From an uncultured Sphingomonadaceae bacterium (lineage in GTDB: Bacteria > Pseudomonadota > Alphaproteobacteria > Sphingomonadales > Sphingomonadaceae), in the NCBI GenBank assembly GCA_947501695.1, contig CANMWO010000003.1, forward strand, positions 583,001 through 647,000: a stretch of DNA of 64,000 bases. Reading direction: 5' to 3'. How positions within the stretch are numbered: position 1 is the first letter of the stretch; every line of letters starts with the position of its first letter. Shown in pieces: positions 6,476 to 48,356 of this stretch. Under the pieces are notes generated by a model. That model was given only the letters and a program-made list of their open reading frames with translations. It was not told the DNA's origin and searched no databases. Made by a program: the position numbers and the translations under genes.

Positions 6476-8848
6476 CTATCCCCTCAATTCCGCGCCCAAT
6501 TTTGCCCCATTGGCGACAACCTTATCGGAAAGGGTTTTTAAATCTTCTTCGGTCAGCGTCGCCTCGGTTGGTTGCAGGGTGATTTCCACCGCCAATGATT
6601 TCTTGCCTTCACCAACGCTTGCACCCTCGAACAGGTCAAATAATCGCGCGCCAGTGATGAGTTTTTTGTCGGCGCCCTTAACAGCACGCACGAGATCGCT
6701 CGCCGGTAGGTCTGCATCAACAATGAAGGCAAAATCGCGGGTCACCGCCTGCAGAGCGGGCGGGGCAAAGGCTTCGCGCATATGGTCCTTGGCTCTCTTC
6801 ACCGGGATGGCGTCGAGGAAAATCTCGGCTGCAACAGCCGTGCCTTTCAGGCCCATGGCTTTGGTCACTGTTGGGTGCAGCACGCCATAGGCGGCCAAAA
6901 TCTTCTTGGGCCCAAGTCGCAACGTACCGGATTGACCAGGATGATAATGATCCCCCGCTTCCGCGAAATCCATCAACTTATCAATGGGTGCGCCAGCGGC
7001 TTCCAAAATCGCGAGCACTTCTGCCTTGGCATCATAGGCATCATATTTGGTAGCGGAGCCAGCCTGCCAGCTGCGCGCGCGATTCTCGCCACCGAGCACA
7101 AGACCAATGGTTGGATGTTCGGTGCTTTCCAGATAGCGGCGACCGACTTCGAACAAACGAATGGACGATGCGCCGCGATCAGCATTACGCTGGGCAGCTG
7201 CAATCAAGCCGGGCAGCAATGATGGCCGCATGACTTTCAGGTCTTCACTAATCGGGTTGGCGAGCGACCAGTTGCCGCCGCCAAAGGGCGCAGCTTCCTT
7301 GTCCGAGATAAAGCTCCACGTCACAGTCTCGTTGAGACCACGCGCAGCAGCAGCGCGGCGGGCTTTGCGTTCAGCCAGCTGTTCCGGCGATGCGGTGGGT
7401 TTGGCAACACCGGCTTTGCGCGGCAACGGTGTGGATGGAATGGAGTCCAGTCCTATGATGCGGATGACTTCTTCGACCAGATCCTGCCAACCCGCGACGT
7501 CACGACGCCAGGTTGGAACAGTCACTTGCCAGCTTGCATCCACGGCAAAACCGAGAGCTTCCAATATGGATTTCTGCTTTTCAGGCGCTACATCAATGCC
7601 ACCCAATGTCGCGCACTGCTTGGGATCATATTTGACCGTGCGCTGTTCCGTCGGAGGTGTACCAGCGCGTGTAACTTCGCTCGCGCTGCCGCCGCAAAGC
7701 TGCAGCACTAAAGCGGTAGCTATATCAATACCATCATCGAGAAAAGCGGGATCAACGCCGCGCTCAAACCGTTGGCGGGCATCGCTGGTCAGCATCAGTT
7801 TCTGACCGGTTTTGGCAATCGAAGCGGGATCGAAAAAGGCGCATTCGATCAACACGTCGGTAGTTGATTCTTCCGAGCCGGTTTCCGCGCCGCCCATGAT
7901 ACCGCCAATATCGTGGGCGCCATTGTCATCGGCAATGACGGTCATGGTTTCGTCGAGCACATATTCTTTGTCGTTCAGCGCTGTCAGCTTTTCACCGGCT
8001 GTGGCTTTTCGCGCAACCAACCCGCCTTTTAGTTTGGCTACATCATAAACGTGCAAAGGCCGCCCGTGGTCGAGCATCACATAGTTGGTGATATCGACCA
8101 GCGCGTTGATCGGTTTCTGGCCAGCGGACTTGAGGCGTGCCTGCATCCAGTCAGGCGATGCGCCGTTGGACAGGCCGTTTACAGTGCAGCCGTAAAAAGC
8201 AGGACAACCTTCGCTATCGTCAGTCCGCACATCAGGCCCACTGCCGCTGCGCGCAATCGCATCGATAGTCAAAGCTTTGAGCGTACCGATACCGGTAGCC
8301 GCCAGATCACGAGCAATACCGCGCACGCCCATGCAATCCTGACGATTGGGGGTGATCGCAACGTCTATGACCGGATCATCCAGATCTGCATAATCAGCAT
8401 AGCTCGTGCCAACCGCAGATGCGGCGTCGGCTGGCAATTCGATGATACCATCATGATCCTCGCCCAGCTCCAGCTCCCGCGCGCTGCACATCATGCCGAA
8501 ACTCTCGACATCGCGAATTTTGGCGGGCTTCAATGTGAAATCACTGCCAGGAATATAAGTACCAGGAGGTCCGAAGACACCAACCATGTCCTTGCGCGCA
8601 TTGGGCGCACCGCACACGACTTGCCATGGCTCATGGGAACCATCGTCAACCTTCAACAATTGCAATTTATCCGCATTGGGATGCGGGCCTGCTTCGATCA
8701 CTTTTGCAACGCGAAAGGCTTTCAGAGCATCGGCGGGATTTTCCAATCCCTCCAGCTCCAGACCAATGTCGGTCAGCTTGTCAGTAATTTCGGTGAGGCT
8801 CGCATCGGTATCGAGATGGGCTTTGAGCCAGCTTAGTGAAAATTTCAT
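6476..8848 (-). CDS. pheT: Phenylalanine--tRNA ligase beta subunit
   Basis: 790 aa [18 protein letters not shown]... with tRNA-binding and B3/B4/FDX-ACB-type regions. Confidence 0.97.
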
Positions 8849-9960
8849 GCGCCAACTCCTCCGCTCAATGTGGGTACGTCAAGCGCGTCAAAGCCGTAAT
8901 GCTCGGTCCAGCGCAGATCGCCGTCAAAGAAGGCACGCAGATCATCCATGCCATATTTGAGCATGGCGAGCCGGTCGATACCGCAACCAAAGGCAAAGCC
9001 CTGCCAGACATCGGGATCGAGCCCGCAATTGCGGATGACATTCGGATGCACCATGCCGGAACCCAGGATTTCCATCCAACCGCCATTTTCGCTGCGCGGA
9101 TCACCACCAATGATCCGGCGGCCTTTTTCAACGGTAAAGCCCAAGTCCACTTCAGCGGAAGGTTCTGTAAACGGGAAATAACTCGGGCGCAGACGCAATG
9201 TGATGTCATCACGCTCGAAAAACGCGCGAACAAAAGTTTCAAGCGTCCATTTGAGATGACCCATGTGAATACCCTTGTCGATCACCAGACCTTCGACCTG
9301 ATGGAACATCGGCGTGTGGGTCGCGTCGCTGTCGCTGCGATAAGTTCGGCCGGGTGCGATAATGTAAATCGGCTCACCAGCGCCATCTGTCTGTTTCGCA
9401 ACATCCATCATCGTGCGGATTTGTACCGGAGACGTATGGGTGCGCAGCAGCTTGGGCATGCCACCTTCATCCGTTTGCGGGAAATAGAATGTATCATGCA
9501 TCGCGCGCGCCGGATGGGTCTCCGGAATATTCAATGCGGTGAAATTATGCCAGTCATCTTCGATTTCCGGACCGGTTGCGACCGAGAAACCGAGATCCGC
9601 AAAAATCTCGGCCAGTTCGTCCATGACCTGACTAACCGGATGGATACTGCCCTTGGGCCCGCTGGGCGGGGGCAGGGTCATGTCGAGTTTTTCGGTTGCA
9701 AGCTGTGCGTTCAGCGCTTCGGTCTCGATGCTGTCCTTACGCGCGGCAATCGCATCCGCAACGGTTTGGCGAGCGCCATTAATTTTCGGGCCTTCGCTCT
9801 GACGTTCTTCGGGTGTCATTTTACCAAGCGTTTTGAGCAGCGCCGAAATCTCGCCTTTTTTACCAAGTGCGGCGACGCGAATGGCTTCCAAAGCGTCGCC
9901 GTCGGCAGCCGCTTCTACCTGTCCGAGATATTTCTCTTTAATTGCTTCACTGTCACTCAT
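8845..9960 (-). CDS. pheS: Phenylalanine--tRNA ligase alpha subunit
   Basis: 371 aa, class II aaRS motifs; 4-bp overlap with pheT. Confidence 0.97.
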
Positions 9961-10022
9961 GACTTTACCCTATTTTCTTTGCTGACCGTCTAAAGCAGGC
10001 TGCGGCGAAAAACCCAATAAAA

Positions 10023-10051
10023 AAGCGCCGCGAGATTGCTCTCCGGCGCTT
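10023..10051 (-). terminator. Rho-independent terminator downstream of rplT
   Basis: Minus strand: AAGCGCCG-GAGAGCAATCTCG-CGGCGCTT followed by a T run (aagcgccggagagcaatctcgcggcgctttttt). Confidence 0.8.
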
Positions 10052-10071
10052 CTTTGAAATTATTGAAACAC

Positions 10072-10434
10072 TTAAGCTTTCGCTAGAGCATCCTGCGCCT
10101 GTTTGATGATGCCGCTAAACATAGCAGGTTCATTCATCGCCAGGTCGGCCATTACTTTACGGTCCAGTTCAATGCCGGCGAGCTTCGTGCCGTGAATGAA
10201 TGTGCCGTATGTCATGCCTTCTGCACGAACTGCAGCGTTAATACGCTGGATCCAGATAGCGCGAAAAGCCCGCTTTTTAACTTTACGATCGCGATACGCA
10301 TATTGACCGGCTTTTTCGACAGCCTGCCGCGCGACGCGGATGGTGTTTTTGCGACGGCCATAATAGCCCTTCGCCTGTACCAATAATCTTTTATGTTTTG
10401 TACGAGTGGTCGTACCCCGTTTTACACGTGCCAT
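10072..10434 (-). CDS. rplT: 50S ribosomal protein L20
   Basis: [55 protein letters not shown]. Confidence 0.98.
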
Positions 10435-10480
10435 TTTCTATATCCTTGAATTTTGTGAAGCGATGGAAACCCCGGTGCTA

Positions 10481-10681
10481 TTAAAGCCCGTAAGGTGCCC
10501 ATTTCTTGATTGTTTTAGCATCTGCATCAGCACAGTTTTTGGTGCCGCGGTTTTGCCGGATATATTTGCTGTTATGGCTCATCAAACGGTGGCGTTTGCC
10601 AGCTACGCCATGCGTAACCTTGCCGGTTGCGGTGATTTTGAAGCGTTTCTTCACACCACTTTTGGTCTTCAACTTGGGCAT
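10481..10681 (-). CDS. rpmI: 50S ribosomal protein L35
   Basis: [33 protein letters not shown]. Confidence 0.98.
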
Positions 10682-10827
10682 TTTGGTCTCCTCTAGAAGT
10701 TACCGTTACGGACACATGTGGCAGCCCAACACTGGCCAGTGCATCACATCGGAACGGCGGCAATAGCTAGATTCGCCTAAAATGCAAGATATAATGCAGA
10801 TTCGACGCTGCTTTATGCAGCTTTTAA

Positions 10828-22757: not shown

Positions 22758-22849
22758 GGACACGTGGGTGAGCGGCTGAAACCACCTCCCTGCTAAGGAG
22801 GCAAGGGCCTCACGGTCCTTCGAGGGTTCGAATCCCTCCGTGTCCTCCA
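22758..22849 (+). tRNA. tRNA-Ser (anticodon GCT), with encoded CCA
   Basis: Acceptor stem GGACACG/CGTGTCC, anticodon stem-loop cctccctGCTaaggagg, long variable arm, T-arm gagggttcgaatccctc, 3' CCA. Confidence 0.93.
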
Positions 22850-22977
22850 TTTATATTATTTCAGAAAGTCTTATATTGTCTCTTAAGGCAATGATTTTGC
22901 TTGATTTTCTGGCTTATGTGATTTTCATGCATTCTTATAATGTTTCATAGAATCCCACAATAATTGTTGGGTAAATT

Positions 22978-23739
22978 GTGGGGCAAATATGGATAGATGA
23001 TGAAATGGGGAAGCCGACTGCACCAAAAATTCGAGATCTGAAAGAGCCAGGTAACTATGGCGACGGTGATGGATTATTTTTGAGAATAGGAGGTTCTGGC
23101 AAAGGATATTGGATTATTCGCTGCCAGATTAACGGACGGCGTCGTGATATTGGCCTTGGCCCACTCAGTCTTATGTCATTGGCCGAAGCTCGCGAGGCAG
23201 CCTATCTGATTCGAAAGGACATCCACAACGGCCTTGATCCGATTGCCGAGCGCAAAAAGGAAAAGCTGGTCATCCCGTCCTTCAGGGACGCTGCGAAACA
23301 GGTTCATGCGGAATACCGTTTGGCGTGGAAGAGTGGCAAGCACCAAAAGCAATGGATAACGACACTCGAAAAACATGTTTTTCCCAAAATTAGCAATCGG
23401 CTAGTCGATGATATTGAAGGACCAGTGATACGGAATGTACTGGCCTCGATATGGCTAACAAAACCGGAAACAGCGCGAAGGGTAAAACAGCGGATCGGAG
23501 TAGTCTTAGGTTGGGCCTATGCAAATGGTTTGCGTGCTTCTGAAGCACCGCTCCGTTCGGTGGGGCGCGGTTTGCCGAAACATCCTAAAAAGCATAATCA
23601 TATTGCAGCAACACCTTATGAGTACTTACCAGAGTTGCTAAAACATCTACACACCAAGGAAAACGTGAGCCGCCTGGCACTGGAGTTCCTGATTCCGACT
23701 GCCACTCGTTCTGGTGAAGTTCGCTCTGTCCATCTTTGA
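22978..23739 (+). pseudogene. Truncated P4-type tyrosine recombinase/integrase (DUF4102-like N-terminal domain), catalytic domain missing
   Basis: IRDLKEPGNYGDGDGLFLRIGGSGKGYWIIRCQINGRRRDIGLGPLSLMSLAEAREAA..., ends at ...LEFLIPTATRSGEVRSVHL*, just after the first catalytic Arg; no H-x-x-R or Tyr motif follows. Confidence 0.87.
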
Positions 23740-29983: not shown

Positions 29984-30574
29984 ATGCTGAAACGATTTTT
30001 TGATATTGTTGCGTCGGTCATTGGACTAATTTCTTTGGCACCAATATTCCTCCTCATCGGACTTCTCGTAAGAGTTAATCTGGGAGCACCAGTCTTTTTT
30101 GTACAAGAGCGCCCTGGGCTTAATGGCGAGCCCTTTAAAATGATCAAATTTCGGACTATGAAAGACCTGATCGGAGGGAACGGCGAACGGCTACCAGATG
30201 GAGACCGCTTGACAGGTTTTGGTCGTTTGCTTCGCAGCACTAGTTTGGATGAGCTTCCTGGGCTGTGGAGCGTTTTGAAAGGCGATATGGCTTTGATCGG
30301 TCCGCGTCCATTGCTTATGGAATATATTCCTTTGTATAATTCCGAACAGAATCGCCGTCATGATGTACGACCAGGAATTACCGGTTGGGCACAAGTGAAC
30401 GGCCGCAATGCTATAAGTTGGGAAGAAAAATTCGCAGCTGACTTATGGTATGTCGATAATCAGTCGCTAATGCTGGATTTCAAAATCTTAGCGATGACAA
30501 TTATCAAGGTGCTCAAAAGGGATGACATCGACGCAGATGGGGAAGCAACCATGTCGAAATTTACTGGGAGCTAA
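29984..30574 (+). CDS. Small (monotopic) polyprenyl-phosphate phosphoglycosyltransferase, PglC-like
   Basis: MLKRFFDIVASVIGLISLAPIFLLIGLLVRVNLGAPVFFVQERPGLNGEPFKMIKFRTM...STSLDELPGLWSVLKGDMALIGPRPLL...RPGITGWAQVNGRN. Confidence 0.93.
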   Translation: MLKRFFDIVASVIGLISLAPIFLLIGLLVRVNLGAPVFFVQERPGLNGEPFKMIKFRTMKDLIGGNGERLPDGDRLTGFGRLLRSTSLDELPGLWSVLKGDMALIGPRPLLMEYIPLYNSEQNRRHDVRPGITGWAQVNGRNAISWEEKFAADLWYVDNQSLMLDFKILAMTIIKVLKRDDIDADGEATMSKFTGS

Positions 30575-30576
30575 CT

Positions 30577-31230
30577 ATGGATAATACACCAATTTATGCG
30601 GCATATGGAAAAAGTGGTTTTGGACGCGAAGTTATGCCGATTGTTGTCGAACAATTTGGTCGCGAAGAGCAATCGGTATCAGTATTCATAGATGACGGAA
30701 AAACTGATGAAGCGGTGAACGGGCACAGCGTCTGGAGCTTTGAAGAACTAGAGGCCCACCCGTCACTCAAAAAGAAAATAGTCATTGCGATCGCGGACGG
30801 GAGGGTACGCGAAGAATTAGCCAATAAATGCGCGGCGGCCAATATCGGGTTTATGTCCGTTGTCGCAAGCAACCATCTCAGAATGGACAATTGTATGGTT
30901 GGAGAAGGAGCCATTTTCTGTCCTTTCACAACTCTCACGAGCAATATTGTGATAGGCGTTCATTTCCAGTGCAATATCTATAGCTACATAGCACATGATT
31001 GCGTGATTGGTGATTTTGTAACATTTGCACCGGGCGTCAAATGCAATGGCAATGTCCATATTGAAGATCATGCCTATATTGGTACTGGCGCAATCCTGAA
31101 ACAGGGAACATCAGATTTGCCCTTGCGCATTGGTAGGGGGGCTGTTGTGGGAATGGGCGCGGTGGTCACGAAAGATGTAGCGCCTGGCGCTATTGTGGTT
31201 GGTAATCCCGCTCGTCCACTGGCTAAATAA
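30577..31230 (+). CDS. NeuD/PglD-like sugar O/N-acyltransferase
   Basis: N-terminal Rossmann-like domain plus C-terminal hexapeptide repeats ending GMGAVVTKDVAPGAIVVGNPARPL. Confidence 0.88.
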   Translation: MDNTPIYAAYGKSGFGREVMPIVVEQFGREEQSVSVFIDDGKTDEAVNGHSVWSFEELEAHPSLKKKIVIAIADGRVREELANKCAAANIGFMSVVASNHLRMDNCMVGEGAIFCPFTTLTSNIVIGVHFQCNIYSYIAHDCVIGDFVTFAPGVKCNGNVHIEDHAYIGTGAILKQGTSDLPLRIGRGAVVGMGAVVTKDVAPGAIVVGNPARPLAK

Positions 31231-31244
31231 AACCTCTCAAAAGT

Positions 31245-32423
31245 TTATTGCATGGCTTTCCCAAACGACTGGCGAACGGCATTGCAATAACCCTCGAGTT
31301 GCCCCTCTTTAATAGATGGATGCGTCAAGAACATAATACTAGTCTCGCCAAGCTCTCTAGCAACCGGTAGCCGCTCTTCCGGCCGCCAGCCTGTTCCATC
31401 AAAAGCTTTTTCAAGATAAACCTCGCTACAACTACCCTGGAAGGCCGGATATCCTTGCGCAACAATATCTGCAACAATCCGATCTCTGGTCCAACCGTCT
31501 TTCAAGCCCTCTGAATTAATATAGCCGTATTGCCGGTAATACGCGTGAGTATGATTGTCATCGACATTTGGCGACCGGACCACCTCTGGAAATGAACGAA
31601 GAACCTTCTGTAAAGCCCGCGCGTTGCGGGTGCGCAACGCGGTCCATTCTTCCATCCTCTTTAGCTGAATCCGGCCAATAGCAGCCTGCACCTCGAGCAT
31701 TCGCCAGTTGGTCCCGAAACTTTCATGCAGCCAGCGAAAACCCGGGGGGTGGTTTTTGTTATAAACAGCATCCCAACTCTTTCCGTGGTCCTTATAAGAC
31801 CACATCCGGTTCCAAAGTTCTTCGTCGTTGGTGCTTACCATACCGCCTTCGCCGCCGGTCGTCATGATTTTATCCTGACAAAATGACCAAGCGCCTGCAT
31901 GGCCAATCGATCCCACCATTCGGTCACCGACTTTTGCTCCATGTGCCTGTGCGCAATCTTCTATAACATAGCAATCCTGCGCGCGTGCAACAGCCATAAT
32001 CCCCTCCATGTCGCAAGGCCAGCCGCCGAGGTGAACGGGGATGATCGCCCGAGTTTTCTCGGTCATCACTGCGGCAATAGTCTTCGGACTGATATTCCCG
32101 CTCTCACCATCAACATCTGCAAAAATCGGAGTTGCGCCTGTGGTGACCACCGACGAGACAGAAGCTATAAAAGTCCTCGGCGTAACGATAACTTCGTCAC
32201 CTTCGCCAATACCAAGGCATTTGAGCACCAAATCAAGCGCCAGAGTTCCATTTGCCAATGCAATTGCTCTGGTAGTATTGGTCCAAGTAGCAAATTCCTT
32301 TTCAAATTTGCGCCCGATTTGTCCAGTCCAGTAATTTACATTGTTTGAAATGATAACATCTCGAACCATATTTGCTTCGTCATCTGAAAAATAGGGCCAC
32401 GGCGATAGATTATTTTGTATCAT
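31245..32423 (-). CDS. DegT/DnrJ/EryC1/StrS (PglE-like) nucleotide-sugar aminotransferase
   Basis: PVHLGGWPCDMEGIMAVARAQDCYVIEDCAQAHGAKVGDRMVGSIGHAGAWSFCQDKIMTTGGEGGMV. Confidence 0.93.
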   Translation of the reverse strand: MIQNNLSPWPYFSDDEANMVRDVIISNNVNYWTGQIGRKFEKEFATWTNTTRAIALANGTLALDLVLKCLGIGEGDEVIVTPRTFIASVSSVVTTGATPIFADVDGESGNISPKTIAAVMTEKTRAIIPVHLGGWPCDMEGIMAVARAQDCYVIEDCAQAHGAKVGDRMVGSIGHAGAWSFCQDKIMTTGGEGGMVSTNDEELWNRMWSYKDHGKSWDAVYNKNHPPGFRWLHESFGTNWRMLEVQAAIGRIQLKRMEEWTALRTRNARALQKVLRSFPEVVRSPNVDDNHTHAYYRQYGYINSEGLKDGWTRDRIVADIVAQGYPAFQGSCSEVYLEKAFDGTGWRPEERLPVARELGETSIMFLTHPSIKEGQLEGYCNAVRQSFGKAMQ

Positions 32424-37736: not shown

Positions 37737-39050
37737 TCAATTGGGTAGTCGGTTATATGAGCGCGCTTTCGCCATATAAAGAATTGATATCGTGATCACT
37801 GTAAACAAGTTGCCTGGCGAATGAAGAAGTTGATTGTTCGCGGGCAAGAAAAATGCGCCAAGGGTGAGTAAGGAAAACATCAGAATGGCAAATGGGTTTT
37901 CATACCGTATTGCTGATATCCAAGAGCGAGCGAACAAATAGGCTATAAAACCAAACAGGATGGTCGTACCAGGGAAGGTAAAGTCTGTCGCAAAATGCGT
38001 AAATGCGGTGTGCCATTTGCTTTCCCCCCAGCCTGCTTGAACGCCTGTTTGGAAGAGCAGTGTATTTGGCCATACCCATTCAACCCCGAACACACGATTG
38101 GCAATCACGGACAATGAATAAGAGAAGCCCAAGAAATACGTCCAAGAGTGATTGACCGTGGTGGCCAGTCCTAAACCATAATAGCCTTGCGAGAGGTAGC
38201 TAAGAAAAACGGTCAACGAAAAACCCATATCGGGGCCGAAAACCTTAAAAATGGGATGATCAACGTCAATCGCGATATTGTTAAGGGATTTTTGGTTGTA
38301 GTTAAATGCATCAGTAGACAATGCCGCATAGCGCTGCGCCAATATAAAGGCAAAAATAAATATAGATAAAATTCCGGAAAATATTCCAATAATTAAAGTC
38401 CGTAATTTGATTCCTTGATTTGTAACTCCTTTCTTTATTGCTACTATAGCAATGATATATATAATTGTATCGCCAAGCTGTTTTTGTTTTCCTGAACCTA
38501 GAACATAGAAAATAAGCGAACCTACCAATACGAATAGCACGGCCAGTTTTTCTGCTTTTGTGAGCGTCCTAAAATAATATAGCCCCCAAATATTCGTTAT
38601 GAATGCAAATGGCAGCCCGAAGGAATATATTAGAAATTGCAGACCGTAAGTTCCGCTATTTCGTTCGTAACCTTCATATCCATCCAAGTAGGTGGCGCCT
38701 ATGGCGGTAATATCGGTATTAAAATTGCCTTCGAAAAGGGCTGCGGAAACAACAAAAATAAGTGATATCGCGGAAATGAAGAGAGATATCCGGAAGAGTT
38801 TACTGACGAATTGAGTGTTCATTTTCGTATTTGGTTTAGGCATTTTAGTCGGCAGCCGGACGCCATTGATAAAACCAAATGCAATCGTAGTCATTGTTGC
38901 CACCATGAAAAAAACGGTATTCCAAACTGGAAAGTTAAAATAAATGGTGGGACCGAAAATAGCTATTAGTAAAGTGATGGTTAGATAGGCCAGCAAAAAA
39001 CGCAGCGGAGCATAGGCCATTATGGGTAACGGTGCTCTCAAATGTTTCAT
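37737..39050 (-). CDS. Oligosaccharide repeat-unit polymerase (Wzy-like), AT-rich
   Basis: 437 aa, about 12 TM, O-antigen polymerase-like pattern; 4-bp overlap with upstream acyltransferase gene. Confidence 0.72.
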   Translation of the reverse strand: MKHLRAPLPIMAYAPLRFLLAYLTITLLIAIFGPTIYFNFPVWNTVFFMVATMTTIAFGFINGVRLPTKMPKPNTKMNTQFVSKLFRISLFISAISLIFVVSAALFEGNFNTDITAIGATYLDGYEGYERNSGTYGLQFLIYSFGLPFAFITNIWGLYYFRTLTKAEKLAVLFVLVGSLIFYVLGSGKQKQLGDTIIYIIAIVAIKKGVTNQGIKLRTLIIGIFSGILSIFIFAFILAQRYAALSTDAFNYNQKSLNNIAIDVDHPIFKVFGPDMGFSLTVFLSYLSQGYYGLGLATTVNHSWTYFLGFSYSLSVIANRVFGVEWVWPNTLLFQTGVQAGWGESKWHTAFTHFATDFTFPGTTILFGFIAYLFARSWISAIRYENPFAILMFSLLTLGAFFLPANNQLLHSPGNLFTVITISILYMAKARSYNRLPN

Positions 39051-39592
39051 TTTGAATTTGTCCCGATACCAAAGATGCGCTTGTATTCTCTAATTTTGGC
39101 ATCTCCTAGAATGTGGCCTATTTCTAGAGAATCTTTTCTGGCCTTCTCAATATAATCGGCGGTGTTTTTTATAAACTGAGCGGGGTTTCCGCCAACGATC
39201 GTCCCATCTGGTACGTCTTTTGTGACGACTGCATTAGCGGCAATTATACAGTTTTCGCCAATTGTAACTCCTTTTAAAATAACAGCCCCAGCACCAATGA
39301 AGCAATTGTTTTTAACAACAATTGGTGCAGCAAGATCTAATGAAGGATTTTCTTTCCTAAAGGGAAGCACCCCACCGTCATGGCAAATAAATTTTGCACC
39401 AACACTTATAAAAATATTGTCATGTAGCGTAACTAGAAATGGTTCCGAGCTGAACATTTCATAACTTGAACCATAAATTGTTACTTTACCCTTCATTATG
39501 ACACCGATTTTTGCGGCGAATTTCACTGGTGATAACTTAGCTTGAAGAACGGAAACCGGAAATCTAATCAAGCGCTTTAAACGATATAGCAA
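39047..39592 (-). CDS. Left-handed beta-helix (hexapeptide-repeat) acyltransferase
   Basis: VVKNNCFIGAGAVILKGVTIGENCIIAANAVVTKDVPDGTIVGGNPAQFIK. Confidence 0.9.
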   Translation of the reverse strand: MLYRLKRLIRFPVSVLQAKLSPVKFAAKIGVIMKGKVTIYGSSYEMFSSEPFLVTLHDNIFISVGAKFICHDGGVLPFRKENPSLDLAAPIVVKNNCFIGAGAVILKGVTIGENCIIAANAVVTKDVPDGTIVGGNPAQFIKNTADYIEKARKDSLEIGHILGDAKIREYKRIFGIGTNSK

Positions 39593-39934
39593 TCTAAGGG
39601 ACCTTCCTAAGCATTTGTAAACTTCACGCGGAATCTCAAAACCATTAGCCGAGGCAAAGTTTGATAGATAGGCTTTCGCTCAAAAACCAACAACTAGTGG
39701 AAACAGAATTCCAAGTCGATAGTTTTACGGCCAGTTTGCCGAAGGCGCTAACTATAAATATGAGGCTAAGCGGACTTGTAAATTGGAGGTTCTCCAAATT
39801 GATAATCTATCAATGAGCGCAAAAGTTGATATAGAAAGTACAAGTCCATCCCACATCTTTACCCTTTGCTTGCATTTGGAGACACAGATATCTAATGGGC
39901 TGGGAGCTGATCATTCTCGACTAAGGAAAATGCG

Positions 39935-40720
39935 ATGGCGGGCGTTAGCCAGACGAATCTCAAAATTATAGCCCAGGACTGCGTCGACAAAATTTCTGGG
40001 GAAAAAGCAGAAGGCGAGTTCTTTAACGAGCCCTTTAAACATCTTGTAATTGATAATTTTCTTCCTGCCGAATTGGCCGATCAATGTCTTGACAGTTTTC
40101 CAAGCGTGGCAGACGGAGAATGGGACCAATCCAATGATGAGGATATTGAAGTAAAGTACCGGTCTAGGTGGCAATCCGAATTTGATATTCCAGAAAATAT
40201 AGTTGACGTCGTGCGTCTTATGAATTCGGCACCTTTTCTTCGCGCGATGGGAGAGAAATTTGGTATCCCCAAAATAGTTCCAGATCCCTATTTTGCCGGC
40301 GGAGGATTGAACGTGTCTGTGAAAGGTGGACTTCTTGGCGCCCATGTTGATGGGAACTACCATGACCCAACGGGTCTCAACCGGCGTTTGAACGCTCTGA
40401 TCTACTTGAATCCCGAGTGGAAGCCCGAATGGGGGGGGGCATTTGGGATTTATGACTCAGAAGGCCAAGAGTGTGTCAAAAAAATTGCACCTTTGCATAA
40501 TAGGTTGATAATATTTGACACCCATGATTATAGCTTCCACGGTTTTCCTGAAGCTATTAACTTTCCGGACGAACACCCTCGCCGTTCGATTATTCTCTAT
40601 TATTACACAAAGGCGGCCAGGCCAGAATCTCAAACAATCGTCGACAAACCGCATAGTGCCCTCTGGGTAAAAAGAGGCCTTAAAGACAAGCGCGGCAACA
40701 CGAGCCGTCAGTTCACTTAA
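39935..40720 (+). CDS. 2-oxoglutarate/Fe(II)-dependent oxygenase (prolyl-4-hydroxylase-like fold)
   Basis: HVDGNYHDPTGLNRRLNALIYLNPEWKPEWGGAFGIYD ... H (FHGFPE) ... RRSIILYYYT: HxD...H facial triad and Arg for 2OG. Confidence 0.85.
   Translation: MAGVSQTNLKIIAQDCVDKISGEKAEGEFFNEPFKHLVIDNFLPAELADQCLDSFPSVADGEWDQSNDEDIEVKYRSRWQSEFDIPENIVDVVRLMNSAPFLRAMGEKFGIPKIVPDPYFAGGGLNVSVKGGLLGAHVDGNYHDPTGLNRRLNALIYLNPEWKPEWGGAFGIYDSEGQECVKKIAPLHNRLIIFDTHDYSFHGFPEAINFPDEHPRRSIILYYYTKAARPESQTIVDKPHSALWVKRGLKDKRGNTSRQFT
40431..40439. repeat. G9 homopolymer inside the 2OG-Fe(II) oxygenase CDS
   Basis: gaa tGG GGG GGG Gca, encoding E-W-G-G-A. Confidence 0.95.
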
Positions 40721-40760
40721 CTTTCCTCAATATTCCAACATCAACCGGAAGAGAGACAAA

Positions 40761-41561
40761 ATGTCTTTACTAGAACGAGCATTCCATTTGGCTCACGATA
40801 TATTCCCAGAAGGCGGCGCCTGTTTCGAATTCGGTGTTTTTCGGGGTAGTTCATATGTTTATCAGGCCGAACAGATAAAGAAATATTATCCTTCAAGTTC
40901 CATCGCTGGTTTTGACTCCTGGCAAGGCCTCCCGGATGAAACCGAAGGTGTATGGATTCCAGAAAGACATGCTCGGGGTGAATACGCCGCGCCGAAAGAC
41001 GAAGTCCTGAGAAAACTAGATCTTATCGGAGTGATACCCGATGATAAGCAGTTCCGGTTAATCGACGGATTTTATTCCGATAGTCTTGTTCCTGAACTTC
41101 GCGAAACATTTGACCCCTTGATTTTCGTTAACATTGACGTTGATATTTACGTTTCGACAATTGAGTTGCTTGATTTTATCGAACCCATGCTCCGCCCCGG
41201 TGTCGTTCTTTATTGGGATGATTGGAAAGACCCGCGTGATGTTCATGGTGAGTCATGGGGTGAACATAAGGCTTGGGATGACTGGACCGAAAGCCGTCCC
41301 CGGTTGGAAACGGTTTATGTCGGATCAAACTCTGCCAACCAACAGGTGATGGTCGTCACTGCGGTGGAAGGTGAAAATGACCGGATGTCAGATGCTGCAA
41401 TTACAGCTATTCTCGATAGGTTTAAAAAATTCGACGACAATCCCCCAGAGCTTCGCAAAATACCCAAAACTGACGCAGTCATTCTATCCTTGAAGCAACG
41501 GATATCAGCCATTCCGCTGCTTGGTTCTATTGCGAAGGCCACATATCGGATTTTCCGTTAG
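40761..41561 (+). CDS. TylF/macrocin O-methyltransferase-like SAM-dependent methyltransferase
   Basis: FEFGVFRGSS (SAM motif), AGFDSWQGLPDE, IFVNIDVDIYVSTIELLDFIEPMLRPGVVLYWDDW. Confidence 0.82.
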   Translation: MSLLERAFHLAHDIFPEGGACFEFGVFRGSSYVYQAEQIKKYYPSSSIAGFDSWQGLPDETEGVWIPERHARGEYAAPKDEVLRKLDLIGVIPDDKQFRLIDGFYSDSLVPELRETFDPLIFVNIDVDIYVSTIELLDFIEPMLRPGVVLYWDDWKDPRDVHGESWGEHKAWDDWTESRPRLETVYVGSNSANQQVMVVTAVEGENDRMSDAAITAILDRFKKFDDNPPELRKIPKTDAVILSLKQRISAIPLLGSIAKATYRIFR

Positions 41562-41580: not shown

Positions 41581-42855
41581 TCAAGATGCTTCTAAGGCGT
41601 AAAGCCAGTCTTCAACGGGCGAAATGAAAGATTGATAGTGAAAGACCTTTGAATTGTAGCAATAGGACTTCATCGCGTTGACTTGGCTATCTGATTGGGC
41701 AAATAGTTCGACAATCTTTGCAGCAGCTTTATCGAAGTCAGTGATTTCAACCAGGTGACAGGTCTGTTGCTCAATTAAATATTGTGAGCTGCTGGGCATT
41801 GGATTGGTTATAACAGGTGTACCGTAGCTGATTGATTCAGAGAGTTTTCCTGGAAAACCTGCGAGGTTTGTTCGCGTTTCTTTGCGGAAAAATATCGAGA
41901 ACGCGGCCTTTGGCAGCGTTTCCAAGAGTATTTTACGAGGCTGGCGACCATGGAAGCTAAGGTCATCCTGCATATCATCCAGTATCGTAACTTGCTCGGG
42001 AACGAGTTCCCGATACTGGTCAAGATCGACACCATATAGATCCATATGAAATCTGGCACCTAGAAGCTTGGCGCGGTGCAATACATCAAAGACCCAGTCC
42101 AATCGATCTTTCATGCCATCGGCAGATTCAGAGACGCTAGCTTTATCAAATCCGGTACCCGCAAAGAAGAGTCTGGTAATGCCGTTTGAACGATCCACTA
42201 TTGGTGTCTGCTCGGTTCTATTGGGTGCCATTAAAGTAGGGATTTCAACGATCGGTTTTCGGCTTGATCTATAGAAGCCTGATATAAATGGTGAGGTAGT
42301 GATCAATCCATCCATTCGCCAATTGACGTAGTGCATTCTCAACATCACATCCAAATTTTTTACAATGCCCGACACGCTGCCCCAATGGCGTTTGCTGTAC
42401 CATTCGGTGCAGTCGGCAACGGCGAGAGCGCCATGTTGTCTTGCCAAATGTGCTATACGCCATTGCGATACGGCAGGATGGTTATAGCAAATGACAGTAT
42501 GCAGATTGGCTATATCGGTCAGCAAAATCAGTTTTCGCAGGGGTGCGTCAGATAAAATCTGTCTAAGCCAATTGACTTGGTTGCTAGGATATCCCATTTC
42601 CCAGGCTTCGAGACCGCTCTCCCCCGATTCAGCTGGATAAAGATGGCCATTTGCTTGGCGATTTTTGCTCAGTCCGACCAGCAGTACTCGGTATCCGAGC
42701 TTTTGAAAAATTTGCGCGTTGGTTATCACGCGCTGCGCCGCGGCATTTTTGTCGGGGAGTTCAAAGCCGCCGATATAAACTATCGTACGGCGAGTATCGA
42801 CTGCTTCTGCTTTCTGGCCAGTCTTATTGTACCTGTCTATCTCAGATATAGTCAT
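41581..42855 (-). CDS. Glycosyltransferase (GT4-like)
   Basis: TIVYIGGFELPDKNAAAQRVITNAQIFQKLGYRVLLVGLSKN...GFPGKLSESISYGTPVITNPMPSS; start MTISEIDR at 42855. Confidence 0.8.
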   Translation of the reverse strand: MTISEIDRYNKTGQKAEAVDTRRTIVYIGGFELPDKNAAAQRVITNAQIFQKLGYRVLLVGLSKNRQANGHLYPAESGESGLEAWEMGYPSNQVNWLRQILSDAPLRKLILLTDIANLHTVICYNHPAVSQWRIAHLARQHGALAVADCTEWYSKRHWGSVSGIVKNLDVMLRMHYVNWRMDGLITTSPFISGFYRSSRKPIVEIPTLMAPNRTEQTPIVDRSNGITRLFFAGTGFDKASVSESADGMKDRLDWVFDVLHRAKLLGARFHMDLYGVDLDQYRELVPEQVTILDDMQDDLSFHGRQPRKILLETLPKAAFSIFFRKETRTNLAGFPGKLSESISYGTPVITNPMPSSSQYLIEQQTCHLVEITDFDKAAAKIVELFAQSDSQVNAMKSYCYNSKVFHYQSFISPVEDWLYALEAS

Positions 42856-43990
42856 GAATCCTGACTCCGTCCCAATCGTTGGACAGCTTGGCGGTCCCAA
42901 CGATCAGTTTGACCACGCGCTCTGACGTATTAGTCACTTTATAATCTTGCGGGATGTCATGGGGTTTCCCACTCTCCCGTCGTTCGGCATATAATGATGT
43001 CACAAGTTCGATGGCGCGAAGAATCGTGTCCTGGTTCAAACCGGTATTGACAATATTTCCGGTATCCATAGCCTCTGGCCGCTCGATTGCGTCACGCGGT
43101 GTTATAGCCGGGAAGTCGAGAATTGCACTTTCTTCAGATATCGTTCCGCTGTCAGAAATCGCACAAAAAGAGCTCATTTGCAGTTGGTTATAGTCATGAA
43201 AGCCAAACGGCTTCATATCACGTATGCGTTTATCCAAGTCGATATGTTCCAACTGGTCGAACCGTGATTTTGTCCGCGGATGAGTCGAAATAATAATCGG
43301 GAAGTCATATTTTTCAGCTATTACGTTTAGCGTGGCTACAAGCGAAAGCAGGCGTTCCTTGCTATCTACATTTTCTTCACGGTGCATCGAAACAACAAAA
43401 TATTTACCTTTTTCCAGACCCAATTCATCCAATATATTTGATGATCCAATCTGCGATCGATATCGGTTTAAGACTTCGAGCATTGGGGACCCTGTGACGT
43501 ATATCCTGCGTGGATGAATCCCTTCGGCTAGAAGATTGCGCCTCGCATGCTCTGTATAGGGCAAGTTGAAATCGCTAATATGATCCACCATTCGGCGATT
43601 GGTTTCTTCTGGTACATTGCGATCAAAGCTACGATTGCCAGCTTCCATATGATAAATAGGTATTTTCATACGTCGCGCCATCAATGCGGAGATAGCGCTG
43701 TTTGTATCGCCAAGAACTAACAAAGCATCAGGGCGGTTGTCGTTGAGAACTTGTTCTGATTTGAGCAACACGTCGCCTAGAACAGCGCCTAAGCTTGCGG
43801 TATTCACCTTCATGAAGACGTCAGGTTTCCGGACACCCAAATCGTTGAAAAATACTTCGTTTAACTCGTAATCATAATTCTGACCTGTATGTACCAATTG
43901 ATGATCACAAACTTGATCAAGGAGAGCGATTGTTGGAGCGAGGCGAATAATCTCGGGACGCGTGCCAACGATTGTTGTGACTTTAAGCAT
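42842..43990 (-). CDS. UDP-N-acetyl-hexosamine 2-epimerase (WecB fold; CapG/WbjD/WbvD-like)
   Basis: MLKVTTIVGTRPEIIRLAPTIALLD...HTGQNYDYELNEVFF...GDTNSAISALMARRMKIPIYHMEAGNRSFDRNVPEETNRRMVDHISD. Confidence 0.9.
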   Translation of the reverse strand: MLKVTTIVGTRPEIIRLAPTIALLDQVCDHQLVHTGQNYDYELNEVFFNDLGVRKPDVFMKVNTASLGAVLGDVLLKSEQVLNDNRPDALLVLGDTNSAISALMARRMKIPIYHMEAGNRSFDRNVPEETNRRMVDHISDFNLPYTEHARRNLLAEGIHPRRIYVTGSPMLEVLNRYRSQIGSSNILDELGLEKGKYFVVSMHREENVDSKERLLSLVATLNVIAEKYDFPIIISTHPRTKSRFDQLEHIDLDKRIRDMKPFGFHDYNQLQMSSFCAISDSGTISEESAILDFPAITPRDAIERPEAMDTGNIVNTGLNQDTILRAIELVTSLYAERRESGKPHDIPQDYKVTNTSERVVKLIVGTAKLSNDWDGVRIHDYI

Positions 43991-44912
43991 TTGAAAAATC
44001 CGTACGGGCACGGGTTACCGCCGTGTCAGGATAGAATTTGGCGAAGCCAATTAACTGCGATATCATTTCATCCCAAGAGGGCTGCTGGTAACCAGTTTTA
44101 TCCGCGAATTTGTGACCATCCAGTGACCTGTCGAGTACAAGCTGCCCGTCGGCTTCTATTTCTGCGATACTTTTAAAATGTTGTTTGAACTTTGATATCA
44201 GATCGAACTTTGATATCTTTGGTCCTGTTACATGGTAAATTCCATATAGATTTTGCCTCGGATCAATAAAATATTGATCAATAGTTTTCGCTAACTGTAA
44301 GTTAGTGAGTCCCGAAAAATAGGCGTTGGTGAATCCATTTATTACACTGGATTGATCAAGAAACCAGGCTAGTAATCCTCGTCGTGAAGAGAGTTCAAAG
44401 CCTACTGGGGAAGTCCGTATAGTAACGGAGTCGCTTTCATTCACAACTTCGCCCAGGGCTTTGCTCAGCCCATAAAATGTTTTGGCGTTAACACGATTAT
44501 CTTCGGTATAGTTACCGTCATCACCGTCAAACACACAGTCCGTGCTTAAATGGATGAAACGGGCTCCAAATTCTCTCGACATCTTATGAAGCCGATGCGG
44601 CAACAGTGCGTTGGCAGGTAAAGCCGTGAGTGGATCTTCACCGTTTTCGATGTGGGCCGTAGCACCAGCGCAGTTGATCACAACATCAGGGCATGCGTTG
44701 GCAAAAAGCATCTCGAGAGATTTATCATCATCGATATCGCCTGTAATGAATAGGCTTTTGCGACGGTTCGGATCAAAGGCCTCAATATCACGGCGGCTTC
44801 TTAGCGAACCGATCACTTCATTTTGGGTATGCGTGGTGAAATATGTCCACATACAGTAGCCGATCATGCCATCGGCTCCGACGACAAGTATCCTCAACGG
44901 TCTTTCCTCCAA
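43983..44912 (-). CDS. RmlD-like SDR nucleotide-sugar 4-ketoreductase (WbvR-like)
   Basis: LRILVVGADGMIGYCMW...NCAG...FIHLSTDCVFDGDDGNYTEDNRVNAKTFYGLSKALGE; no C-terminal cupin as in CapF/WbjC. Confidence 0.87.
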   Translation of the reverse strand: MEERPLRILVVGADGMIGYCMWTYFTTHTQNEVIGSLRSRRDIEAFDPNRRKSLFITGDIDDDKSLEMLFANACPDVVINCAGATAHIENGEDPLTALPANALLPHRLHKMSREFGARFIHLSTDCVFDGDDGNYTEDNRVNAKTFYGLSKALGEVVNESDSVTIRTSPVGFELSSRRGLLAWFLDQSSVINGFTNAYFSGLTNLQLAKTIDQYFIDPRQNLYGIYHVTGPKISKFDLISKFKQHFKSIAEIEADGQLVLDRSLDGHKFADKTGYQQPSWDEMISQLIGFAKFYPDTAVTRARTDFSNA

Positions 44913-45928
44913 GATTCCAGTTCTAAACTAACTTCCGGTAGACTCAGTAAAAGTTGTTTGACTCCATCTACATCCAGGCGACTGGTATTATGCGAATGAT
45001 AATCGTCATGATGAACGATCTCCACATCACCCTCACTGAAATATTTTTTGTAGTTTAGGTCGCGCTCGTCGAGTTGCAGTCTCCAATAGTCATCCATGTC
45101 CTCTGCAGTCGCTAGCTCTTGTGCACTTGCCAAAGTTTCGTATAGTTTTTCAGCATGCCGCCAGCCGATGACTTGCACTTCATGATCCGGCACTTCAAAC
45201 AGCCCCAATAAGGCTGTCACTAGATCAGCGATTGTCGAGGCAGCCGCTTTCTTGATAAACAAATCACCTTGGCTAGCATGCATAAAGGCAAAACGGACCA
45301 ATGAAACACTGTCGCGCAACGGCATCAGGAATCGGGTCATGTTGGGTTCTGTAATAGTTATAGGTTGGCCGGTTTTTATCTGCTTTATGAACAGCGGGAT
45401 TACAGAGCCCCTGGAACACATCACATTGCCATAGCGCACGCAACTGATGGTGGTTTTGGCTCCCTCTCCGATTTCGCGAGCAGCCGATTGGGCTAACTTT
45501 TCCATCATTGCTTTCGACATACCCATAGCGTTGATTGGCAAAACCGCTTTGTCAGTTGAAAGGCAGACGAGAGACTTTACCCTGTGTTCAACGGCCGATC
45601 GAATTACATTCTCGCTACCCAATATATTGGTACGGACTGCCTCAAGAGGGAAAAATTCGCAGCTTGGCACCTGCTTCAACGCGGCAGCATGAAAAACCGC
45701 ATCGACTCCTTCCATTGCACGATCAATGCTCGATCGTTCCCGGATATCTCCTAGGAAAAAACGGACCCTACTATCGCTCAGCTGATTGCGTAAGGCATCC
45801 TGCTTTTCTTCGTCGCGGCTAAAAACACGGATTTCAGGAACACCATCAGCCAGAAGGTCAGTCAGCATCGTTTTTCCGAAGCTTCCGGTGCCGCCTGTAA
45901 TGAGGACAGAATTGGGTAAACTACTCAC
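44894..45928 (-). CDS. UDP-GlcNAc 4,6-dehydratase/5-epimerase (CapE/WbjB-like)
   Basis: SVLITGGTGSFGKTMLTDLLADGVPEIRVFSRDEEKQDALRNQLSDSRVRFFLGDIRERSS...AAALKQVPSCEFFPLEAVRTNILGSENV...STDKAVLPINAMGMSKAMMEKL. Confidence 0.93.
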   Translation of the reverse strand: MSSLPNSVLITGGTGSFGKTMLTDLLADGVPEIRVFSRDEEKQDALRNQLSDSRVRFFLGDIRERSSIDRAMEGVDAVFHAAALKQVPSCEFFPLEAVRTNILGSENVIRSAVEHRVKSLVCLSTDKAVLPINAMGMSKAMMEKLAQSAAREIGEGAKTTISCVRYGNVMCSRGSVIPLFIKQIKTGQPITITEPNMTRFLMPLRDSVSLVRFAFMHASQGDLFIKKAAASTIADLVTALLGLFEVPDHEVQVIGWRHAEKLYETLASAQELATAEDMDDYWRLQLDERDLNYKKYFSEGDVEIVHHDDYHSHNTSRLDVDGVKQLLLSLPEVSLELESWRKDR

Positions 45929-46461: not shown

Positions 46462-46500
46462 AAGTGTCACCGCGACAAATTATCGAGATTGGTGACACTT
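46462..46500 (-). terminator. Perfect 10-bp inverted repeat AAGTGTCACC-N19-GGTGACACTT over the 3' end of the beta-helix gene
   Basis: Arms read directly; overlaps the stop codon at 46467-46469; no strong U-tract, so terminator status uncertain. Confidence 0.35.
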
Positions 46501-48356
46501 ATAATTCTTTCGAAATGAGCCTGTTTGCGGGGCAATTGCATTTTGGAATTCAGCTCAAACATATCTCTCTTATGGGGGAAAGCGCAGTTCTTCAAACTGC
46601 AATTGTCAATTCGTTTGGCAGGATCTGAGCCCTCAACAAGTTTCAGATATTTTTTGTGTTTGGACGAATCTACCCTAATATTCTCAATATGTACTGGTCC
46701 CAATGCAATTTCACCATGGGCACTATCTTTCACTTGCATCAAGCATAACACGGTCGGCACTTCTTTTTTGACACTATTGGCATGGATTAATACATTGCTA
46801 ATCAAGCCACCAGTCATGTCATTGGACGCGGCACCTGAATAAAAACGACTTTGCGGGTAGTGCTCTATATGGCCTTTGCTTAATTCACTATTCCAAGCGC
46901 TTTCAACACAAATATATGCTTTGGCACAGTCGCCCGAAAGGACGACCGGGCCCACAATCTCAAAGTCACTACAATCCACACTAATTTTGATATGATATTG
47001 TCCTGATATTTGCCTATTTCCTGTCGTAATGCTAGTTCGAGCAATACGAAATTTCGGCGAAGAAAGTTGCACATTTATTAGTGCCTCACCGATCCACCGG
47101 TCGTTGCTTTCCGTTATAGTAATCTTGTCGATGAACCCATTGGGGCAATTATATCCGAACAAGATCGCGGTGGACAAAGTATTTTCGATGTTGGCGCCTA
47201 CAAGGCTAATATTTTTAGCACCCCATTCGCAAGCGATGCCTCTAACAGCGTTGATCGAATGATACTTCGTAATCTTGTACTGCTCGCATCCAGACAGATA
47301 TGCACCGTAATATCCACCGTCTATTCTGACATTGTCAATTTCTCCCTTTTCGGCGGGCACGACGCAGTTCGCTTTTCTCTTTCCGCCAGATAGATAATAA
47401 TCTGCCACTATTGCCGGAGTTAGAACACCATTGACCTCAATGTTTGAAGCGCCCTGGTCGAACCCGGCTTTTGACAAGGAAGCGGCACTCAAATCGGAAG
47501 GAACAGCGATAGGGCGCGTTGTTGAATTTTTCCAATAGCATGCCGTCGCTGCTTTTGGCACCGCACCACCGGTTGAGCCATTCTGGACTGTAGAAATCAC
47601 AACAGAAGTTCCGGACGCTATCAAATCGCTGGGCATCGCAACCGACAAGTCGCCGGCGTCACTTATTGCATACCATCTGGGTGTGGGCCGGGCGCCGCCG
47701 CGAGCTCCTTTCACGAAGCAGTCTCGGATATTCAAGCCACCGTTTGTAGAACCACCATCCGCATATCGAAAATTCTGAATATGATAGCCCTGTATATAGT
47801 TTTTGCCATGAATGTTCCTAAAAAGAAGGTCCCCACCTCCATTCTCAATAAATATTCCTCGCACGCCGTTCGGAGATTGAACATGATTGGCGTTTATCAC
47901 TAAATCGTGCCACACTCCGGCCACCGGATTGGAAGCCGCCCCTGATTTGCGTCCACGAATTCTAAATCCGCATGCATCGTTGTTGACTGACGTATCGGTT
48001 GAACCCAGAATAAATTCCGCTGATGCTCCGTCGAAGTCGGGAATTTTTCCGTCAACTTCTGGCCATATTTCGACTGGCTGCAACAGTCTGTATCGAGCCG
48101 CCGGCGTCGCCGCTATCGGTCGGCCAGCATCGCGAGCGAATGCGAATGCTCTGATCAAGGCAGGTGCATGGTCTTCTCCATCAATGGAGCGGTAAAATTC
48201 ATCAATTTGAACTGGCTCTATACCCAAAAGATATTGAGCAATTTTGCTTTTGGCGGGTTCGGCCAGAACTAAACCTGCTGAAGCGGTCATCAAGCCCCCA
48301 ACCGTAGCCCGTCTGGATAACGAATTTTTCATGAATCTTGCCCGCTTATTTTTCAA
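46467..48356 (-). CDS. Tat-exported right-handed beta-helix-like protein (possible polysaccharide lyase/depolymerase)
   Basis: Twin-arginine leader MKNSLSRRATVGGLMTASAGLVLAEP; repeated short beta-strand pattern (GGLNIRDCFVKG..., IDNVRIDGGYYGAYLSGCEQYKI..., ISLVGANIENTLS..., ILFGYNCPNGFIDKITI). Confidence 0.7.
   Translation of the reverse strand: MKNKRARFMKNSLSRRATVGGLMTASAGLVLAEPAKSKIAQYLLGIEPVQIDEFYRSIDGEDHAPALIRAFAFARDAGRPIAATPAARYRLLQPVEIWPEVDGKIPDFDGASAEFILGSTDTSVNNDACGFRIRGRKSGAASNPVAGVWHDLVINANHVQSPNGVRGIFIENGGGDLLFRNIHGKNYIQGYHIQNFRYADGGSTNGGLNIRDCFVKGARGGARPTPRWYAISDAGDLSVAMPSDLIASGTSVVISTVQNGSTGGAVPKAATACYWKNSTTRPIAVPSDLSAASLSKAGFDQGASNIEVNGVLTPAIVADYYLSGGKRKANCVVPAEKGEIDNVRIDGGYYGAYLSGCEQYKITKYHSINAVRGIACEWGAKNISLVGANIENTLSTAILFGYNCPNGFIDKITITESNDRWIGEALINVQLSSPKFRIARTSITTGNRQISGQYHIKISVDCSDFEIVGPVVLSGDCAKAYICVESAWNSELSKGHIEHYPQSRFYSGAASNDMTGGLISNVLIHANSVKKEVPTVLCLMQVKDSAHGEIALGPVHIENIRVDSSKHKKYLKLVEGSDPAKRIDNCSLKNCAFPHKRDMFELNSKMQLPRKQAHFERIISVTNLDNLSR

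Follow-up and report, generated by a model that had tools for sequence, protein, structure and literature searches.

Hydroxylated and methylated polysaccharide sugars are usually explained by nucleotide-sugar pathways. Among the enzymes whose folds are relevant here, OGFOD1 and Tpa1 hydroxylate prolyl residues in proteins, and CalS11, MycF, NovP and SpnH are sugar O-methyltransferases, the known ones acting on antibiotic sugars. Oxygenases with bacterial surface sugars as substrates are nevertheless a known kind, since KdoO, the Kdo 3-hydroxylase of Burkholderia and Yersinia, hydroxylates Kdo, a sugar of lipopolysaccharide (LPS) (PMC5462993). KdoO performs the sort of surface-glycan sugar hydroxylation that we propose below for a further oxygenase, to which it is likened by described function and not by sequence, and its target, Kdo, belongs to the lipid A-core. 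PolD is reported to help form the nucleoside moiety of polyoxin (PMC12614342), and the structure of PasI has been solved with amino-octanosyl acid phosphate; both act on sugar-type substrates, and the 2OG-Fe(II) oxygenase fold thus includes sugar-handling enzymes. The described UDP-L-FucNAc pathway comprises CapE-CapF-CapG (or FnlA-FnlB-FnlC), of which the middle enzyme is bifunctional and ~369 aa long; WbjC, with 369 aa, performs both C3-epimerisation and C4-reduction (PMC5774825).

The window analysed here is a stretch of 64,000 nucleotides from an uncultured Sphingomonadaceae bacterium, in which an oxygenase gene and a methyltransferase gene lie side by side within a surface-polysaccharide locus (Table 1). 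A first-pass annotation had described two plus-strand ORFs in a glycan locus, with glycan genes of the minus strand on either side. Both ORFs are present at the positions it gave, and the setting is borne out by the flippase, polymerase-like, glycosyltransferase and sugar-pathway genes around the pair. The strand pattern is true locally: the minus strand encodes, to the left of the pair, a hexapeptide acetyltransferase-like protein, a membrane protein resembling a polymerase, and a MurJ-like flippase, and, to the right, a glycosyltransferase and CapG/WecB-like, RmlD-like and CapE/FnlA-like proteins, but farther left the exopolysaccharide (EPS) genes (O-antigen ligase-, Wza- and Wzc-like, Bac_transf, hexapeptide, DegT and group-1 glycosyltransferase) are mostly on the plus strand. 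In the ORF list the methyltransferase gene lies downstream of the oxygenase gene at a spacing of 40 bp, and purine-rich, ribosome-binding-like stretches precede both start codons (AAGGAAA for the oxygenase and GGAAGAGAG for the methyltransferase). A two-gene transcript is presumed to start in the intergenic region upstream of the oxygenase gene; a promoter and terminator scan of this region returned zero promoter-like matches above chance and was uninformative. Elsewhere in the locus, consecutive Bac_transf, hexapeptide-type and DegT aminotransferase genes at 29984-32423 resemble a PglC/PglD/PglE-like set and perhaps serve a bacillosamine-type initiating sugar. A 629-aa ORF at 46467-48356, the start of which looks signal- or Tat-like, had zero Pfam or NCBIfam matches.

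Table 1. Features at and around the oxygenase-methyltransferase pair (window coordinates)
Feature	Coordinates	Strand	Evidence
Hexapeptide-repeat acetyltransferase-like gene, divergent from oxygenase gene	39047..39592	-	Pfam Hexapep E 1.5e-11
Intergenic region, 342 bp, between divergent acetyltransferase and oxygenase genes	39593..39934	.	ORF positions
Predicted 2OG-Fe(II) oxygenase, 261 aa	39935..40720	+	Pfam, invariant residues, model; subfamily with L065 and L212
Predicted TylF-like SAM-dependent O-methyltransferase, 266 aa	40761..41561	+	Pfam, PDB sequence matches, fold
Glycosyltransferase gene, convergent with methyltransferase gene	41581..42900	-	Pfam Glyco_trans_1_4 E 8.1e-7
CapG/WecB-like putative UDP-HexNAc 2-epimerase, third step	42842..44011	-	PDB CapG 7ya2 E 1.1e-119
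RmlD-like putative reductase, 309 aa, second step	43983..44912	-	Pfam RmlD_sub_bind E 2.3e-24
CapE/FnlA-like putative UDP-GlcNAc 4,6-dehydratase/5-epimerase, first step	44894..45928	-	PDB 4j2o E 2.7e-122, CapE 3vvb E 2.5e-116

The product of the first gene is a predicted 2OG-Fe(II) oxygenase of the PF13640 superfamily (2OG-FeII_Oxy_3, E 3.7e-16, 60.3 bits against a gathering score of 27). H137, D139, H202, R216 and S218 are invariant across an alignment of 89 oxygenase homologues, in the layout H137-x-D139...H202 followed by R216-x-S218, and in this family these positions bind iron and 2OG. The AlphaFold2 model is confident (pLDDT 90.8), and its best PDB folds are OGFOD1 (E 3.6e-11) and Tpa1, then PolD, PasI and PHD/P4H enzymes. 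The Pfam match, the complete set of catalytic residues and these folds agree with the prolyl-hydroxylase-fold oxygenase named by the first-pass annotation. The window oxygenase shares fold, superfamily and the HxD...H and RxS motifs with the Tpa1/OGFOD1- and PHD-type enzymes, but it is only ~20% identical to them, has a single domain and is encoded in a polysaccharide locus rather than serving the ribosome or oxygen sensing. PolD and PasI, whose substrates are of the nucleoside-sugar type, have the same fold, and PolD is alike in sequence too (sequence match E 1.4e-5, fold match E 1.4e-9, 17% identity); their settings, in contrast to the glycan locus of the window, are nucleoside antibiotic clusters, from which FnlA/RmlD/WecB-type genes are not reported. 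A weak family match to the peptide-modifying YhhC was also found.

The second gene encodes what is, by profile and fold, a TylF-like O-methyltransferase with a putative sugar substrate. It scores above the gathering score for Pfam TylF (PF05711; E 4.8e-7, 29.7 bits against 23) and also for Methyltransf_24 (E 1.5e-6). Its PDB sequence matches are SpnH, NovP, MycF and CalS11. AlphaFold modelling and fold comparison of both proteins, which the annotation had proposed, led from the oxygenase to OGFOD1/Tpa1 and from the methyltransferase (pLDDT 82.8, confident) to CalS11, MycF, NovP and SpnH. In alignment A6, D126 and D128 are invariant and D153 is nearly so, and alignments place the DxD and DD positions in common between the window methyltransferase and MycF/NovP. 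With its Pfam family, best folds and these positions all pointing to the TylF/MycF/NovP/CalS11/SpnH group, and with the nearest solved relatives acting on sugars, assignment to the sugar-methylating TylF/macrocin-O-methyltransferase family is upheld, although identity to the known members is ~20% and the N-terminus is shorter.

The three sugar-pathway genes beside the pair probably specify a UDP-L-QuiNAc-type sugar. The enzymes for the first and third steps resemble CapE and CapG of the UDP-L-FucNAc pathway, but the middle enzyme is RmlD-like and, compared by length, shorter than the bifunctional ~369-aa protein. Its PDB matches are to RmlD-type chains only (E 1e-8), with none beyond the reductase part. 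A plain reductase presumably fits the UDP-L-RhaNAc/UDP-L-QuiNAc (WbvB/R/D) route over that to L-FucNAc, and since the window protein has 309 aa against the 369 of WbjC, a WbvR-type L-RhaNAc/L-QuiNAc pathway would be the better fit.

Among the matches listed, the closest relatives of the window oxygenase are those at L065 (Methylobacter, 57-58% identity) and L212 (60%); the rest are at ~35%. L212 comes from the same bacterial family as L065 (Methylobacter-type genomes), so the independent comparison is between the window and that one family, and spans two bacterial classes, one of them the gammaproteobacteria. A profile built from the three members (alignment A9) scores them at >520 bits and all others at <=169 bits, and by this measure they form a rare, sharply separated sequence subfamily, which may be larger than three members. 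Four residues common to the three distinguish them from the other homologues: N126 (H in 86/86 others), G140, the residue that immediately follows the HxD motif (F in 82/86), Y173 (W in 83/86) and I220 (A in 86/86). Both relatives lie inside O-antigen/EPS loci, and in both CapG/WecB- and RmlD-like genes adjoin the oxygenase gene, L212 having a CapE/FnlA-like gene as well. The window proteins share 51% and 44% identity with the CapG/WecB-like counterparts of L065 and L212, respectively, 37% and 41% with the RmlD-like ones, and 56% with the CapE/FnlA-like protein of L212. Within the 87 loci first surveyed, L065 was the only one with CapG- and RmlD-like counterparts within 6 kb. The methyltransferase genes differ. 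A TylF-like gene is absent beside the oxygenase at both L065 and L212; at L212, a locus that includes an ABC exporter, a Methyltransf_25-type gene and the oxygenase gene overlap by a single base, and at L065 the nearest methyltransferase is a Methyltransf_23-type gene ~5 kb off, a search of the whole L065 genome, run without a positive control, having found no TylF relative. Because the sugar genes are kept while the methyltransferase varies, the stable link is that between oxygenase and sugar pathway, with the methyltransferase exchangeable. Literature searches on 2OG oxygenases encoded in polysaccharide loci, and on TylF enzymes in O-antigen loci, turned up nothing relevant, and the subfamily, its link to sugar genes and its shifting methyltransferase partners seem not to be described in the literature searched.

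Co-occurrence of the two enzyme types was examined with a TylF profile made from order-level homologues and searched against 1,419 ORFs lying within ~10 kb of 97 oxygenases (95 loci). Seven distinct TylF-like genes were found near the homologous oxygenases, and all seven were immediate neighbours, 190 of the 1,419 ORFs occupying adjacent slots (hypergeometric P ~7e-7). Generic methyltransferase families (Methyltransf_23-type domains) matched 8/95 next-gene neighbours, and such families were absent from the families with at least two members listed at positions +/-3 and +/-4 (122 proteins). Pairing with a TylF-like gene is nonetheless a minority state, seen at ~7% of oxygenase loci, and in the reciprocal direction an oxygenase was present in 0/36 loci of relatives of the window methyltransferase (flanks of ~1.5 kb). 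On a quick oxygenase tree the pairing label required 7 changes for 8 members, compared with 7.8 when labels were shuffled; scattered in this way, the pairings look independently assembled, several times. The paired methyltransferases divide into several subgroups (alignment A6), and order-, class- and genus-level searches did not uncover another genome in which both genes have close relatives. The expected co-occurrence therefore stands in part: seen from the oxygenase side the association is real, but it is a minority one and does not represent one inherited cassette. A reading in which the oxygenase modifies one residue and the methyltransferase acts elsewhere, perhaps on a terminal sugar or on a hydroxyl already present, tailoring genes simply collecting at locus edges, draws on the same data. 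It would account for a partner that is TylF-like in the window, of the Methyltransf_25 type at L212 and not adjacent at L065, and for TylF relatives that exist without an oxygenase; we think it rather unlikely, as every TylF-like gene within ~10 kb is exactly adjacent, beyond what a shared locus predicts.

Outside the subfamily, oxygenase homologues at ~35% identity are common and patchily distributed across phyla. One degenerate peptide pattern, R[RE][IL]N[VLI]L, retrieved at least 588 confirmed homologue stretches from GTDB species genomes; the RRLNAL of the window oxygenase itself does not match the pattern, so that members of its subfamily may have been missed. At E 1e-3, with weak matches counted, 43/251 genomes of the order and 42/385 of the class contained oxygenase matches. 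In surveyed loci, with ORFs called mechanically, immediate neighbours were mixed and included glycosyltransferases, polysaccharide-synthesis proteins and sulfotransferases, together with TMEM260-like, response-regulator and OmpA genes; the Allocoleopsis homologue sits inside an EPS cluster. The commonest upstream Pfam match was to a TMEM260-like protein O-mannosyltransferase (7/94), which is a different context for the family. Several individual loci may be recorded here. On a Sinorhizobium meliloti plasmid (L277, 6974-8670) an oxygenase homologue is followed by a methyltransferase gene in an exosortase-associated EPS cluster, and in Streptomyces phage Zuko (L278, 3823-6315) a homologue annotated as hypothetical heads an operon-like oxygenase-glycosyltransferase-methyltransferase-glycosyltransferase series. 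Near-identical Bacteroidota oxygenases adjoin an opposite-strand gene of ~1,030 aa (L107, L110, L114, L115, L118 and L143, near 6700-10756). At L049 an oxygenase-methyltransferase pair adjoins an NRPS-like gene, and adjacency alone is thus no proof of a glycan substrate.

The L049 and TMEM260-like contexts bear on a different reading, in which the target of the hydroxylation is an amino acid or peptide, either in a protein or in an amino-acyl substituent of the glycan, and the methyltransferase modifies the product or a small molecule. The best fold matches, to OGFOD1, Tpa1 and PHD enzymes, are in keeping with such a substrate, as is the weak family match to YhhC. We regard it as improbable, however, as the window is without a nearby peptide or NRPS gene, each of the three subfamily members is encoded in a glycan locus, and the subfamily differs from its relatives at the active-site-adjacent residues N126, G140, Y173 and I220.

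The first-pass annotation had also suggested that the pair is a mobile tailoring module, and this part of it was not sustained. In the window, neither flanking repeats at the borders of the pair nor transposase genes were seen, and the pair has the same base composition as its surrounding locus, which is 0.40-0.51 GC compared with 0.54-0.58 at 20-22 kb. With the partner differing at L065 and L212 and the pairings scattered on the tree, a conserved or mobile two-gene cassette is not supported, and there is no sign that the two genes have been passed on or have travelled together between genomes. The 32 further genomes of the genus contain no DNA-level match to the pair, and several genus genomes match the dehydratase and epimerase genes of the window at the DNA level. 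The variable unit looks like the whole locus rather than the pair. At 22758-23739, where the low-GC EPS locus starts, a 253-aa integrase-like ORF with arm-binding and central domains and no detected catalytic domain comes after a tRNA-Ser (GCT) gene, an arrangement that points to a genomic island whose integrase has decayed. Phage origin was considered and rejected: scans of viral contigs gave 0 matches to the methyltransferase, 2 distant ones to the oxygenase and 0 to the subfamily alignment. It is very improbable that the pair is a passenger from foreign DNA with no role in the polysaccharide locus. Its strand, opposite to that of its immediate neighbours, and the 0/32 DNA-level matches would suit a passenger, but the ORFs are intact, the active site is complete, the composition is locus-like, the borders are without repeats, and the same sugar genes adjoin the oxygenase in gammaproteobacteria.

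The reading that we prefer, with a probability of about 0.45, is that the pair is a short tailoring operon whose products would hydroxylate and O-methylate one and the same building block of the surface-polysaccharide repeat unit. Using Fe(II), 2-oxoglutarate and O2, the oxygenase would hydroxylate an unactivated C-H of this building block, most likely a UDP-L-QuiNAc-type 6-deoxy-amino sugar or its acyl group, a candidate suggested by the CapE-, RmlD- and CapG-like genes linked next door. The TylF-like enzyme would then transfer the methyl group of SAM to a hydroxyl of the unit targeted by the oxygenase, plausibly the newly installed one. The glycan substrate, the position, the order of steps and the action of both enzymes on one unit are what we infer in this proposal; in its favour are the intact active site, the confident fold, the 7/7 adjacency, the linkage to sugar genes in three genomes and the sugar-acting relatives. 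Counting against it are the unconserved TylF partner, the 0/36 reciprocal result, the NRPS context of L049, the OGFOD1/Tpa1 folds and a subfamily of three members. A wider proposal, that the N126/G140/Y173/I220 subfamily hydroxylates an L-QuiNAc-type sugar (or its acyl group) of surface polysaccharides and that methyltransferases of varied families have repeatedly been recruited next to such oxygenases, where they methylate the new hydroxyl, making a convergent "hydroxylate then O-methylate" module, is doubtful.

The annotation's description of an oxygenase acting on a bacterial polysaccharide as unusual and potentially undescribed was overstated, given the action of KdoO on Kdo in LPS and of PolD on the polyoxin nucleoside moiety. 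What this case offers is a candidate substrate, the UDP-L-QuiNAc-type sugar, together with residue differences that are conserved close to the active site, and three loci for comparison, which span two bacterial classes. If the proposed tailoring is correct, some hydroxylated and methylated polysaccharide sugars would arise by O2-dependent tailoring that is predictable from gene neighbourhoods, and sugar hydroxylation by the oxygenase fold would extend from nucleoside antibiotics, as with PolD, to surface glycans.
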